Source: a virus. From it: a stretch of 26,401 bases of DNA. The stretch spans positions 1-26,401 of the IMG/VR virus record IMGVR_UViG_3300030389_001201, one strand, 5' to 3'. The position numbers were made by a program, and so were the translations under genes. Of the stretch, positions 19,043 through 26,401 are shown piece by piece. A model generated the notes under the pieces. The model did no database searches, was not told the origin of the DNA, and worked only from the letters and a program-made list of their open reading frames with translations. Each line of letters starts with the position of its first letter. The first letter of the stretch is position 1.

Positions 19043-19132
19043 ATGAAAATGTTTTTTACAGCAATGATTGAGTTGGTATCGCTGATGGCGGTGCTTGCCG
19101 CGATTATGTTTGTTGGGTTTTTTGTACTGTGA
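19043..19132 (+). CDS. 29-aa single-span membrane peptide
   Basis: A very short ORF with a good CAGGTGG site 5 bases before ATG. The peptide starts MKMFFTAMIELVSLMAVLAA and continues IMFVGFFVL, almost wholly one membrane span. It lies between two accepted genes with short gaps. Such micropeptides occur in phage early regions, but the call rests on the ribosome site and hydrophobic pattern only. Confidence 0.45.
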   Translation: MKMFFTAMIELVSLMAVLAAIMFVGFFVL

Positions 19133-19154
19133 AACCCAAACTGACAATTTAGAA

Positions 19155-20645
19155 ATGAGCAAACAAATGACACAGAATTTCGGAACAGCAAAGCAAATAA
19201 CTACATTACGCGAAGCGCAAGGTCGTGTAGACAGCAGCGCAAAAACTTATCCAGCCCTGGTTGGAGAAAACTTGGGACATACGACACTCAAGTTTTCATT
19301 GCCTATAACTCAGGTGCTACAAATGGCGAAGGTCGCAAATCATCAAAACATCAGCAATATTGTGTCGTTGCAAAACGAATACGAAGCGCAACGCAATCTT
19401 ATGGTTAATCACGCTAAAAAATTAGCGCAATATACACTGATGGGTTTAGTAAAGTCGGAAATCCAAAGCCATGAAAAAACAAAAGGGAAGGTTTCTTTGG
19501 CGGTACATGAACTGCAAAACAATTTAGGAAAGCCAGCCTATACGTCTTTACAGCCAATGGTGACAAACATTAGAGCCTGTGAAATGGGTGGCGGTGACAT
19601 ACCCGCTGTCGATGTAGGACATAAGTATGGGCAAACAACAGGCATTTACAATGTTACGCTTTCCAATAAACACGTTTTATGGGTTGTGGATGGGCAGCAT
19701 CGCTTAGAAGGTTTTAGGATGGTCTTGGAATTTCTCAAACAAGTCTTGAGAACTTGCAGATACCCGAAACAGGCTGATTTTAAATTGTACGCTCCTAATG
19801 GCCTTAATAATAATCAAATGATATCGGAAGAAATACTTGAGTTCTGGGAAGCTGTATATGATTGGGCGATGCACAGAGCAACCGTTTCCGTTGAGTGTCA
19901 TCTAGGTTTGAACAAACATGAAGAACAACAATTATTCTTTGACTTAAACTCTAAAGGTAAAAAAGTAGAAACAGGGCTGGCTTTTGAGTTTGACCACACT
20001 GACCCAATCAATAAAGCGGTTAAGGATATAGTTATTCCAATACTGCCGTTTGTCCCTAATCTACGGGACAAGAACGCCTTTAATTTTGGTGATGATGGGA
20101 GATTGACCAGGAGAGAGGTCAATAAAATTACGCAAATCCTTTGTCTTGGCAAACAAAACAGGCATGTTACGCCTAGCGAAGTTCAAGAAAAAGAGCAGTT
20201 GATCACGTCTTTCTGGCAGACAATAATTTCGATTAAAGATTTTGGCCAACCATGTTGGCGAGAGAAATCGGTTGCTGCTCAGTCCGTGACGCTGAAAGCT
20301 GTTGCCTTCACCATTCATCGGCTTGTTTATGGGCAAAACAGTTTGCCGCGAGAAGAAGCCATCAAATGCACACAAAAAATCTTTGAGGCTATCCGTTCTA
20401 ATTTATTGAGTTTTTCGTTCGATAACCCAATTTGGAGTTCAATTCTGGTTGAAAAAGCAGAGAGAGAAAAGAAACTAAAGGGCATCAGTAAGTTTGTACA
20501 GATCAACGATGAAATGGTGCAAACCTATGGGGCTGTGGATTTAAAAACAGGCAAGGTGCGTTTTGGTAATAGACATAACGACATCATGTTGTATTTGGGT
20601 GATGCGATTTCGTGGCAACTTTCGTTGCCGCCAAGGAAGGCTTAA
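19155..20645 (+). CDS. DGQHR-domain (DndB-like) protein
   Basis: A 496-aa protein carrying the exact DGQHR motif (residues 179-183, in LWVVDGQHRLEGFRMVLEF). A second family signature follows about 85 residues later: EEQQLFFDLNSKGKKVETGL. DGQHR proteins include DndB, a regulator of DNA phosphorothioation operons, and DpdB of 7-deazaguanine systems. No dndA/C/D/E or dpd genes are in this window, so the protein stands alone. A role against or alongside a host DNA-modification defence is possible but is inference. The start is uncertain: ATG 19155 and ATG 19167 both lack a clear ribosome site. Confidence 0.8.
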   Translation: MSKQMTQNFGTAKQITTLREAQGRVDSSAKTYPALVGENLGHTTLKFSLPITQVLQMAKVANHQNISNIVSLQNEYEAQRNLMVNHAKKLAQYTLMGLVKSEIQSHEKTKGKVSLAVHELQNNLGKPAYTSLQPMVTNIRACEMGGGDIPAVDVGHKYGQTTGIYNVTLSNKHVLWVVDGQHRLEGFRMVLEFLKQVLRTCRYPKQADFKLYAPNGLNNNQMISEEILEFWEAVYDWAMHRATVSVECHLGLNKHEEQQLFFDLNSKGKKVETGLAFEFDHTDPINKAVKDIVIPILPFVPNLRDKNAFNFGDDGRLTRREVNKITQILCLGKQNRHVTPSEVQEKEQLITSFWQTIISIKDFGQPCWREKSVAAQSVTLKAVAFTIHRLVYGQNSLPREEAIKCTQKIFEAIRSNLLSFSFDNPIWSSILVEKAEREKKLKGISKFVQINDEMVQTYGAVDLKTGKVRFGNRHNDIMLYLGDAISWQLSLPPRKA

Positions 20646-22959: not shown

Positions 22960-22994
22960 GTGGGCGGTGAGTTTATCCCTTACTTGCCGCCCAC
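22960..22994 (+). terminator. Strong hairpin between SSB-like and PrimPol genes
   Basis: GTGGGCGGTGAG (22960-22971) pairs with CTTGCCGCCCAC (22983-22994): 12 pairs, two of them G-U, with an 11-base loop. It starts 13 bases after the SSB-like stop. A-rich sequence, not a T-run, follows on the + strand, so it is not a standard intrinsic terminator. It lies 7 bases before the AGGGA site of the PrimPol gene, so control of translation or protection of the upstream mRNA end are alternatives. Confidence 0.5.
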
Positions 22995-23014: not shown

Positions 23015-24916
23015 ATGGTGGATTTAGTTAGTAAGGCGTTAGAGGTCGCGGAAGAATACCCCGTGTTTCCTTGTGACGCCAAGAAGCGACCCGTCTGTGA
23101 GGGCGGGTTCAAAGCGGCAACACAAGACCCGACAGAGGTTGAGCGTTTGTTCAGTGTGCCAAATGCGGCATTGATTGGTATGCCAACAGGTGAAGCTAGT
23201 GGTGTGTCGGTGATCGACATTGATATTAGGGACAATAAAAATGGCAAGGCATGGAAGGAAGATAACCAAGAACTTCTTGGCAATACTAGGATTGCTCAAA
23301 CGCTTTCTGGTGGATGGCATTTTTACTATCTTCATCGTAGTGGTATTCGTAATCGTGCCGGGATTGCTGGGTGCGTGGATGTCCGTGGTGATGGCGGGTA
23401 TGTTATTCATCCAGAGAGTGCTGGTTATCGTTGGCTCAACGACGAGGAGTTTTGCGATTTCCCCGATGCCGTGGCTGATATCGCTACCGATATTTCTCAT
23501 GATTTGGGTGGTCATCAATTAGACAAATTTGGATCGGTCACAGATGGGCGCGAAAAGTATATGGCGTCGATCATCATGGCGTCAGTAGGGGACTATTACA
23601 GGCAGACTAAAACCTATCCCACGCTCAAATGGATGGTCGAAAATGTCTATCCGGTTTACGCCAGCAAAGTCGTGTCCAGGTCAGGCGATTTGGAAAAGGA
23701 TGGGCGCGGGATATCAGAGTTTCAGCGCAAGTGCATCAGTACGCTACGCAAGGCGCATGAGGGCGGTTTTACTGATCTAGGGACTGCGCCACCAAAAAAG
23801 GAAGAAGCCGTGGAGAGCGCAAACGCTAACCCACGGCAGCGCAAGATTGTTCTCAAAACACTGCAAGAATTACGTCAGACACCGCCCCCGACATTTCAGG
23901 TTGCGCCATACATTATCGATAAGTCGTTTGCCGTTTTGTTTGGTGCGCCAGCGTCATATAAATCATTCCTTGCGCTTGATTGGGCATTATCAGTGGCGCA
24001 TGGCGTAGATTGGAACGAGCGACCAGTTATCCAAGGCAGTGTCGTTTACCTTGCCCTAGAAGGTCAGACAGGGCTGGCAACGCGATCTGAGGCATGGCAC
24101 AGGGAGCGAGGGCTGAAAGACACTGACGCGCCATTTTATGCGGTCACAACGCCATTATCACTAGCAGACGAGGCGGGTGATTTAGTGCCATTGATGGATG
24201 GCATAGCGGATGGTTTGGGCGGTGTAAACCCGACAATGATTGTGGTGGATACGCTTGCCCGGTCTTTTGTAGGAGCAGATGAGAACAGCAGCACGGATAT
24301 GGGTGTGTTCGTGCATAACATTGATCTGCTAATAGATCGTTTTGATTGCACCGTTTTGGTCGTTCATCATTCCGGCAAGCAAACGGAGCGCGGTATGCGT
24401 GGTTCGTCGGCGTTACGCGGTGCTGTCACATCGGAGTTTGAACTGGTCAAGACAGTGGGTTCGCAGAGCGTTGCGCTGCATGTTCGCAAGCAAAAGGATG
24501 TCGAAGAAGCCAAGTCGCAATGGCTAACTGCCAGAGAGGTGTCATGGGTTCAGTCGGGGTTTGGCGAGGAACGGACAAGCCTGGTTCTTGACGCGACAGA
24601 CGAGCCTGATGCGCCGAAAAGGTACACTAAAGACCAGATATTTGCGCTTAATTTGCTAGAGCAAATCATTGCTGATGGCAGTGAATGGGTGGACAGAAGT
24701 GACGGTTCAGGGGTGCCAAATGAGGTCTGGAGAGACAGAGTTAACGAGTTAAGAGTGGATAAACAGGGAAATTCCAAGAAATACAGCACTAGCGGATGGT
24801 ATCACTTTGTTGATCGGATGTTGACGTTAGGGGTTATCAATAAAATCAATAACTTAGTCAGTATAACGTCAACAACGTCAACCAAACATCAACATGAAAC
24901 GTCAACTGTAGTGTGA
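23015..24916 (+). CDS. PrimPol - AAA helicase replication protein
   Basis: A 633-aa two-domain protein from ATG 23015 (AGGGA 8 bases upstream). Residues 1 to about 180 are a primase-polymerase domain: PVFPCDAKKRP and then GFKAATQDP near the start, catalytic IDID (D68, D70) and SGGWH (S98-H102), the standard PrimPol motif pair. Residues about 290-500 are a RepA/RecA-type ATPase: Walker A GAPASYKS (K316), Walker B IVVDT (D412), sensor LVVHHSGK. The C-terminal end (about 530-633) may be a winged helix. It would both prime and unwind; no separate DNA polymerase is seen. The last 100 coding bases carry the repeat cluster described separately. Confidence 0.92.
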   Translation: MVDLVSKALEVAEEYPVFPCDAKKRPVCEGGFKAATQDPTEVERLFSVPNAALIGMPTGEASGVSVIDIDIRDNKNGKAWKEDNQELLGNTRIAQTLSGGWHFYYLHRSGIRNRAGIAGCVDVRGDGGYVIHPESAGYRWLNDEEFCDFPDAVADIATDISHDLGGHQLDKFGSVTDGREKYMASIIMASVGDYYRQTKTYPTLKWMVENVYPVYASKVVSRSGDLEKDGRGISEFQRKCISTLRKAHEGGFTDLGTAPPKKEEAVESANANPRQRKIVLKTLQELRQTPPPTFQVAPYIIDKSFAVLFGAPASYKSFLALDWALSVAHGVDWNERPVIQGSVVYLALEGQTGLATRSEAWHRERGLKDTDAPFYAVTTPLSLADEAGDLVPLMDGIADGLGGVNPTMIVVDTLARSFVGADENSSTDMGVFVHNIDLLIDRFDCTVLVVHHSGKQTERGMRGSSALRGAVTSEFELVKTVGSQSVALHVRKQKDVEEAKSQWLTAREVSWVQSGFGEERTSLVLDATDEPDAPKRYTKDQIFALNLLEQIIADGSEWVDRSDGSGVPNEVWRDRVNELRVDKQGNSKKYSTSGWYHFVDRMLTLGVINKINNLVSITSTTSTKHQHETSTVV

Positions 24917-24962
24917 GGTTGATTGACGTGACGTTACACTATAGTAACGTCACGACATCAAC
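24820..24962 (+). repeat. AACGTCAAC iteron cluster, candidate replication origin or operator
   Basis: The 9-mer AACGTCAAC occurs at 24865-24873, 24874-24882 and 24898-24906, and as its exact complement GTTGACGTT at 24820-24828. A variant AACATCAAC lies at 24885-24893, and shorter forms AACGTCA (24946) and TGACGTT (24929) lie in the adjoining palindrome. The first five copies fall in the last codons of the PrimPol gene, the rest in the gap to the next gene. Iterons within or after the replication initiator gene are the arrangement of the lambda origin and many plasmid origins. Confidence 0.6.
24918..24962 (+). promoter_or_regulatory. Perfect palindrome with promoter-like -10 at its centre
   Basis: CGTGACGTTAC (24927-24937) and GTAACGTCACG (24944-24954) are perfect inverted 11-mers around ACTATA. 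GTTGAT (24918-24923) and ATCAAC (24957-24962) extend the symmetry after short unpaired bases. TTGATT (24919-24924) and TATAGT (24940-24945), 15 bases apart, could be a sigma70-type promoter for the next gene, with the palindrome as operator. The symmetric arms could also form a cruciform. No T-run follows, so a terminator is unlikely. Confidence 0.5.
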
Positions 24963-24980
24963 ACTAGGGGGAAAGATCAA

Positions 24981-25574
24981 ATGGCAACTAAAATACCAAG
25001 AAAGACCCGCGAAGATATCGAAGCACTTAACGACCATCAGGTCTGGATACCGCAAGATGATATCACGCGGGATCAGATTGATGGCGCATTGAAGCCGCTT
25101 GATGCTCTGGCAAACGAGATGGAAGAACGATGGGGCAGATGTCGGTTGCAAGAACTTGTTACCCCGGCAACGGCTTCACGCTTTCAAGCGGCAAGTCAAA
25201 AGCTGAACGTGGCGATCTTGAGCAACGACATCGACATGGTTATCCGCAAATCGACTGTCTTGATAAAAGGCTGGCGCGCTATGGAGAACGAGGCATTAGA
25301 AGCTGGTCATAAGCCTATGCCACCAGAGTTGTGGGATTGTCATGCGCCGGAAGAAGATGGCAAGCCGGAAGTCTCGTTTGTTATTGCCAAAAACGCCACC
25401 GCAGCGACACTAGCAGAGGTTGATGTGCCTGTGTATACGACCCAAGAGATAGCGAGGATTATACGAGCATGGAGATTGCAGTCGTCTGTGCAAACAGCGA
25501 AAACCGTTTTCCCTGATGCAGAAATAGTTAGAATATCAAACGATGGTTTTAAGGATGATGATTTGCCGTTTTAG
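24981..25574 (+). CDS. Replication-region protein with SSB-type C-terminal tip
   Basis: A 197-aa protein with GGGGGAAAG before its ATG. The N-terminal part (TREDIEALNDHQVWIPQDDI, then TRDQIDGALKPLDALANEME) and middle are helical, and I know similar proteins only as uncharacterised phage/prophage products. No OB-fold, nuclease or helicase motif is seen. The last residues FKDDDLPF match the DDDIPF tip by which bacterial SSB binds its partners. It follows the palindrome and may be under its control. Binding to the SSB-interacting pocket of host replication proteins is inference from this tail. Confidence 0.75.
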   Translation: MATKIPRKTREDIEALNDHQVWIPQDDITRDQIDGALKPLDALANEMEERWGRCRLQELVTPATASRFQAASQKLNVAILSNDIDMVIRKSTVLIKGWRAMENEALEAGHKPMPPELWDCHAPEEDGKPEVSFVIAKNATAATLAEVDVPVYTTQEIARIIRAWRLQSSVQTAKTVFPDAEIVRISNDGFKDDDLPF

Positions 25575-25585
25575 GGGAGAAGCAG

Positions 25586-25801
25586 ATGTCTGATGTGCCA
25601 AACCTGGATGATGTAGTTTTGAAGGATCGTGGCTATCATAATTTCTATGAAGGTTTTATCGACTGTGATTTTTGTGGTCAGCAGACCCGTGGTCGTGTTT
25701 ATAATGGATCGCACGAAGTAAAGTGTGGCGCGTGTCATTCGGTGCTGTTAACGCTGACCGATGTGCAGCAATATCCGATGACAGGCACTTTCCCACGGTA
25801 G
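25586..25801 (+). CDS. Small zinc-ribbon protein
   Basis: A 71-aa protein (MSDVPNLDDVVLKDRGYHNF...) with GGGGAGAAG before its ATG. It contains CDFC (C27, C30) and CGAC (C47, C50), a four-cysteine zinc ribbon. Such short phage proteins can bind nucleic acid or polymerase, but no partner is visible. Its last codons and TAG stop are part of the first GGCACTTTCCCACGGTAGT repeat. Confidence 0.75.
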   Translation: MSDVPNLDDVVLKDRGYHNFYEGFIDCDFCGQQTRGRVYNGSHEVKCGACHSVLLTLTDVQQYPMTGTFPR

Positions 25802-25825
25802 TCGTGGGCACTTTCCCACGGTAGT
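25784..25825 (+). repeat. Pair of exact 19-bp direct repeats
   Basis: GGCACTTTCCCACGGTAGT occurs at 25784-25802 and 25807-25825, 23 bases apart. The first copy contains the end of the zinc-ribbon gene. CCCACG (in copy 1) and CGTGGG (between copies) can form a 6-pair stem with a 5-base loop. The pair at 18727-18768 has the same unit and the same period, so the spacing is constrained, as expected of a protein-binding or promoter-like site rather than a chance duplication. Confidence 0.8.
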
Positions 25826-25845: not shown

Positions 25846-26401
25846 ATGTACAGGCTGTCGATTGAGGCAAAAGCAGGGTTTTTGACTGACGATATTCAGC
25901 GTGTTGTCGATAAACAATTACCATTTGCTGCGTCTATGGGTTTGAATGAATTGTTATTTAGCGTTCAAAAAACAGAGGTATTGCGGGTTTATGAAAAGGC
26001 ATTTGATAAAAGAAATGACGCTTTCTTTAACTTAGTTAACAGAGTTTATAAAAGTAACAAACGCCAGTTAAAACAATTTGGGTTTCTTACTGCCAGTATT
26101 CAAAGGGGAGAACTACCAGCCCCGGCGGGAAGCTCTACAAAGCCCATTGCATCAACAAAACGAAACCCGGCTGATACATCGTTTATGCTTGTCCATGCGC
26201 GCGGTGGTGTTCGCAAGCCGTTACGTTCTAAAAAGGCAGTACCAATGACTGTGGGAGGTGCAAGGATATCTCGCAGCAAAACGACAGGTAAAGTTCGACA
26301 CGCTCAGAAGGCATCTACTCTGTACGCGCAAGATAATACTTTTGTTCGCAAAAGCACAAAAACTGGCAAGAGCATATTATTTAGACGGGTGCGTAAAAAG
26401 A
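25846..26401 (+). CDS. Partial gene, tail completion (gpZ / HK97 gp10)-like
   Basis: An open frame of 185 codons plus one base, running off the right edge, with AGAAGG 6 bases before its ATG. The start MYRLSIEAKAGFLTDD, then KQLPFAASMGLNELLFSVQK, resembles tail completion proteins whose N-termini carry a -FA-A-ALN- helix. The middle to end is basic (SSTKPIASTKRNPADTSF, KSTKTGKSILFRRVRKK). It begins 21 bases after the second repeat, after the early genes, unlike other tail genes. Identity is moderate at best; the end of the protein is outside the window unless the sequence is circular, in which case it would stop at base 29 (194 aa). Confidence 0.55.
   Translation, partial: MYRLSIEAKAGFLTDDIQRVVDKQLPFAASMGLNELLFSVQKTEVLRVYEKAFDKRNDAFFNLVNRVYKSNKRQLKQFGFLTASIQRGELPAPAGSSTKPIASTKRNPADTSFMLVHARGGVRKPLRSKKAVPMTVGGARISRSKTTGKVRHAQKASTLYAQDNTFVRKSTKTGKSILFRRVRKK

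Follow-up and report, generated by a model that had tools for sequence, protein, structure and literature searches.

Lineage-specific repeats and a hairpin at the 3' end of a phage PrimPol-helicase gene: a putative replication origin that appears to be exchanged with the C-terminal domain of its initiator

Results

The putative initiator gene, the repeats and the hairpin

The stretch of DNA analysed here (the window; 26,401 nucleotides) comes from an IMG/VR virus record and carries genes for the large terminase and the portal. A putative initiator gene near its end (Table 1) codes for a protein that matches the Pfam families Prim-Pol (1.1e-21) and AAA_25 (2e-35), and the helicase part of which matches RSF1010 RepA (PDB 1g8y; E 1.5e-6). 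The start at M23015 is common to all four close relatives, and a GTG upstream, at 22967, is a possible alternative. The last ~108 residues (aa 526-633, counted from M23015) are predicted by AlphaFold2 (pLDDT 81) to have the order of helices and strands of a winged helix, and the model aligns with the winged helix of archaeal ORC2 (VIA-align, Z 8.8), a match that is no proof of function because the fold is common. A fold search with this model returned generic winged helices only; the lack of P4 alpha and RepE among the matches listed excludes nothing.

Table 1. Features of the initiator gene, the putative origin and the gene that follows (window coordinates)
Feature	Coordinates	Strand	Remarks
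PrimPol + RepA-type (AAA_25) helicase + C-terminal winged helix, putative initiator gene	23015..24916	+	Pfam, PDB
C-terminal winged helix, putative specificity domain for iteron binding	24629..24865	+	AlphaFold2 model, co-variation with iterons
Iteron AACGTCAAC, inverted copy (left set)	24820..24828	-	
Candidate melting region: AT-rich stretch (71% AT) separating the two iteron sets	24829..24863	.	
Match (AATCAATAACTTA) to the IHF consensus WATCAANNNNTTR	24844..24856	+	Overlaps coding end
Iteron AACGTCAAC	24865..24873	+	
Iteron AACGTCAAC	24874..24882	+	
Variant iteron AACATCAAC	24885..24893	+	
Iteron AACGTCAAC, beyond the stop codon in L002	24898..24906	+	
Hairpin/palindrome	24918..24962	.	Core 24927-24954 (11 bp + 6-nt loop), outer arms GTTGAT/ATCAAC
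197-aa gene after the putative origin	24981..25574	+	C-terminus DDDLPF

A sequence-only reading of this DNA had described four exact 9-mers (three direct, one inverted) with a variant, a perfect 11+11 palindrome sharing their half-site and a Thr/Ser-rich end of the encoded protein, all of which are present. The repeats start within the coding end of the gene, and no further exact copy of the 9-mer, AACGTCAAC, occurs in the 26.4 kb window. A single inverted copy makes up the left set and is followed by the AT-rich segment and then by the other copies. The palindrome, CGTGACGTTAC-ACTATA-GTAACGTCACG, bears the iteron half-site in its arms and has outer arms besides; its hairpin energy has a z of -6.0. 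The repeat cluster and hairpin at 24820-24962 are far beyond chance: dinucleotide shuffling of 24800-24970, repeated 2000 times, never reached the repeat redundancy or four copies of one 8-mer and gave an 11-bp stem once, and neither a fourfold 8-mer nor a stem of 11 bp occurs in any of the 508 other tiles of the window (350 bp each). The iterons of the window are unevenly spaced (9, 11, 13) and follow no strict helical repeat, which counts against reading the region as an origin.

Conservation in close and distant relatives

The same reading had suggested that the DNA, and not the protein, is under selection, and alignment of the gene ends bears this out: in three close relatives (L002, L003 and L004; 77-96% identity in the best segment) the 9-mers and the palindrome persist as the protein tail varies. 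An earlier stop codon in L002 leaves one repeat copy past the end of the gene, and the Thr/Ser tail is therefore a side effect of the DNA sequence. When the four sequences are compared, 42 of the 44 cells of the hairpin pair, and 4 of its 11 pairs have changed on both sides; slid controls gave no such compensatory changes. The compensatory pairs, together with the repeat beyond the L002 stop, thus argue for selection on the DNA instead of the protein tail.

Homologues with 46-83% identity have, in the same place, repeats of wholly different sequence and then a hairpin. The repeats are short and often 10-11 bp apart, the hairpin core is often a C-run, TATA and a G-run, and the repeat sequence changes in almost every lineage (ATCACAAC in L017, CAAATCTGAAC in L019, ACGGCTACC in L105, CGTACACG in L108, AAGGACA in L109, and GCATGAAGGT in L012, where the hairpin is TACATACCCCC-CCTATATA-GGGGGTATGTA). 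This layout also accompanies the more distant primase-helicases of Rhizobium 16-3 (repeat GCGTGACA), Idiomarinaceae 1N2-2, Roseobacter CRP-821/831, CRP-406, Rhizobium RHph_N65, Alteromonas XX1924, Salicola CGphi29 and others. Of the 26 loci tested, 21 have this architecture at the gene end, where the region ranks with the tiles of its locus that are richest in repeats (no more than 6% of tiles match it). Two of the five exceptions, Corynebacterium phi673 and Vibrio 1.076 (CCCCCTATATATAGGGGG), have the hairpin only; in the remaining three, Gordonia Morrissey, Mycobacterium Rinkes and Caulobacter GB2A, the layout is absent at the gene end, which counts against the origin reading.

The hairpin CCCCCTATATAGGGGG was found in 50 viral contigs, in many of them with flanking repeats and in some after PrimPol/AAA_25, PriCT_2/AAA_25 or VapE-type genes. 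A literature text search for this exact hairpin found no paper, blastn of the origin region against phage records gave no match, and a contig scan with protein alignment found no relative. L028, L034, L050 and similar contigs have the same putative origin layout beside an initiator of another family: a C5-TATATA-G5 hairpin and GGTAGGTAAGT repeats stand after a VapE-type primase-helicase gene. Iteron-flanked C5-TATATA-G5 hairpins also adjoin the small-terminase gene in L029 (near 4891), L074 (near 4141) and L026 (near 4255), and no initiator gene was recognised in the stretches examined of these three contigs.

The C-terminal domain co-varies with the iterons

In region-by-region comparisons, pairs of phages with the same iterons (helicase identity 86-100%) have C-terminal domains 70-100% identical, and pairs with different iterons (helicase identity 78-100%) have C-terminal domains 32-58% identical. 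L108 and L109 are 94% identical in the PrimPol domain, 100% in the helicase and 42% in the C-terminus, and their iterons are unrelated; their DNA identity drops where the C-terminal domain begins and is regained gradually from ~0.5 kb past the stop codon, over the downstream 197-aa gene. The L109 contig, taken alone, could be a chimeric assembly; L012 and L013 behave in the same way, and comparison of the groups to which they belong (L012/L093/L094 against L013/L095/L096/L099) gives the same result.

Some relatives have an accessory gene between the putative origin and the 197-aa gene, a slot in which two unrelated families alternate independently of iteron type (one in L003, L012, L093 and L099, the other in L013, L095 and L017). 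L099 has the domain and iterons of L013, yet the accessory gene is of the L012 type (69% identical), and L003 has an accessory gene of the L012-type family, missing from the window, L002 and L004, yet keeps the domain and iterons of the window. Since the next gene is uncoupled in both cases, pure hitchhiking of the domain with the repeats is unlikely. The co-variation is not proof of contact, as neighbours can be exchanged together without interacting. Nevertheless, related phages appear, from these comparisons, to exchange the repeat cluster together with the protein domain expected to recognise it, and the strong co-variation and the winged-helix model lead us to propose the C-terminal domain as the reader of the iterons.

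An IHF-type site and the remainder of the window

Matches to WATCAANNNNTTR, the IHF consensus, number 12 in 13.7 kb near the putative origins versus 9 in 192 kb, and in a second set 7 in ~23 kb (22.8) versus 6 in ~125 kb (124.6). This enrichment is no more than suggestive, because the site in the window sits in codons of a protein motif conserved in the window lineage; an exact match is absent from L003. An extended element, WWWCAATNNCTTA, was picked after the loci had been seen (12 matches near versus 1 in 192 kb) and had 1 match in the second set; the IHF consensus was therefore used instead.

The 197-aa gene follows the putative origin, directly or after the accessory gene, in nearly all metagenomic relatives and in Roseobacter CRP-821/831. 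Its product belongs to no Pfam family, is mostly helical in the model and gave nothing significant in a fold search; in metagenomic relatives it ends in acidic residues and a final PF (DDDLPF, DDEIPF or DDELPF), much like the C-terminal tip of SSB. The phage replication region of the window also encodes a DndB-like protein (19095-20645; PF14072, E 2.1e-21; also phrog_36010, of unknown function). Two copies of GGCACTTTCCCACGGTAGT, 23 bp apart, lie at 25784-25825, at the end of a 71-aa ORF. In L003 and L012 the gene order is initiator, putative origin, 197-aa gene, small terminase and large terminase. Set against 75-2391 and 25846-26401 of the window, this order suggests that almost all of a circularly permuted genome of ~27 kb is contained in the window.

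Discussion

We consider it very probable that 24820-24962 is the replication origin of the phage. An origin at the end of the initiator gene had been put forward from the sequence of the window, and the proposal is now supported by repeats that differ between lineages in step with the C-terminal domain of the initiator. The switch in GC skew anticipated near 24.9 kb was not found; skew is positive throughout the window, where it is uninformative because all large ORFs lie on one strand.

The repeats could instead bind a regulator, or the initiator acting as a repressor, and serve as an operator or promoter that controls the 197-aa gene. The array lies immediately before the start codon of this gene, TTGAT(T/G) and TATAGT in the palindrome resemble -35 and -10 boxes, and TTGATT-15 bp-TATAGT can be read there and is retained in L002. 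However, a consensus scan passed no promoter, another gene is directly downstream in L003, L012 and L013, and repeat identity tracks the C-terminal domain of the helicase, so that we find this explanation improbable; autoregulation on top of origin function is possible. A packaging (pac/cos) site, read by the small terminase encoded a few kilobases downstream in relatives, would agree with the location of the iterons and C5-TATATA-G5 hairpin of L029 and L074 next to the small-terminase gene. Yet the window and L003 share iterons and have small terminases only ~37% identical, whereas the small terminases of the window and L012 or L019 (59% identical), like those of L003 and L017 (63% identical), go with unrelated iterons. 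Iterons and small terminases thus do not co-vary, as would be expected of a site read by the terminase, and packaging is a most improbable function for the region. The stable hairpin right past the stop codon might also suggest a terminator of transcription, or a hairpin in the RNA beyond the primase gene, with incidental repeats. This is hardly credible, since no G+C stem with a T run was found at 24700-25100, Rfam gave chance-level matches only, and the iterons and their co-variation with the domain would be left unexplained. The promoter and terminator scan of the origin region returned nothing, and the window has no tRNA that could hint at an attachment site. As neither the accessory gene nor the small terminase is tied to the repeats, the domain and the repeats behave as a linked unit.

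Origins located 3' of the initiator gene are already known from SaPI/PICI, pRN1 and IncQ elements, which are closer models than lambda, a loose comparison made in the sequence-only reading. In SaPI/PICI elements the origin comes immediately after the 3' end of the initiator gene and has an AT-rich stretch flanked by iterons, and the C-terminus of Rep reads these iterons (PMC6092414, PMC7581432). Likewise, 24820-24962 overlaps and extends past the gene end at 24916, as in the relatives. In contrast, the repeats here begin inside the coding end, the array closes with a hairpin made of the iteron half-site, the initiator is a PrimPol with a RepA-type helicase, and the phage, with terminase and portal genes, is apparently autonomous and tailed; PICI satellites have few structural genes, and the window has the large terminase, the portal and other large ORFs of a late region. 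In pRN1 the PrimPol initiator, ORF904, has a C-terminal winged helix, and the replicon needs a stem-loop just downstream of the gene that varies in sequence but keeps its fold; the authors of that study proposed the same for phage BIP-1 (PMC4234260). The PrimPol initiator, the 3' stem-loop and the fold kept despite sequence change recur in the phage; however, ORF904 has an SF3 helicase and the pRN1 origin lacks iterons (PMC4234260), whereas the phage helicase is of the AAA_25/RSF1010 RepA type and the iterons are prominent. RSF1010 (IncQ; oriV with ssiA/ssiB) divides the work among three proteins, the iteron binder RepC, the helicase RepA and the stem-loop-dependent primase RepB' (summarised in PMC4234260). 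The phage shares the hexameric RepA-type helicase, its helicase domain matching RSF1010 RepA, and would likewise have an iteron binder and a primase that works at a stem-loop, but carries PrimPol, helicase and winged helix in one polypeptide with no separate RepC or RepB' genes; RepB' is a different protein from the PrimPol, and one palindrome replaces the two single-strand initiation sites. P4 alpha also combines primase, helicase and a repeat-binding C-terminal winged helix in a single protein, with a Toprim-type primase (PMC4234260) in place of the archaeo-eukaryotic PrimPol of the phage. The phage system thus joins features of SaPI/PICI, pRN1 and RSF1010, namely iterons, a hairpin and one polypeptide, and this combination in autonomous tailed phages is new, as is the apparent swapping of the specificity domain with the repeats.

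From the repeats, the hairpin, their conserved location and the C-terminal co-variation we infer the following course. The winged-helix C-terminus would bind the AACGTCAAC repeats that flank the AT-rich segment, probably assisted by bending of the DNA at the IHF-type site, and the helicase domain, which resembles RSF1010 RepA, would open the DNA at that segment and be loaded. The palindrome, exposed as a hairpin, may then be where the PrimPol domain assembles or primes, and the host polymerase would take over from there. With the specificity domain right next to its sites, lineages could change both together.

Origins are known for a minority of environmental phages, and repeats with a hairpin where a PrimPol/RepA-type primase-helicase gene ends (3') offer a candidate origin signature that can be read from the sequence. 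The chances seem to us evenly balanced that these loci represent a widespread class of phage origin, made up of iterons, a C-run/TATA/G-run hairpin and often an IHF-type site, and that the C-terminal winged helix of the initiator and the adjacent iterons can be exchanged as a single specificity cassette, without the remaining parts of the protein. L108/L109 and L012/L013 are a natural experiment, and initiator-origin recognition is directly testable by domain swap; moreover, a recognition code for winged helices could be learned from the many pairs of specificity domain and iteron. If the proposal is true, a single recombination step would change the replication identity of a phage and may allow it, for example, to escape from satellites or incompatible co-residents.
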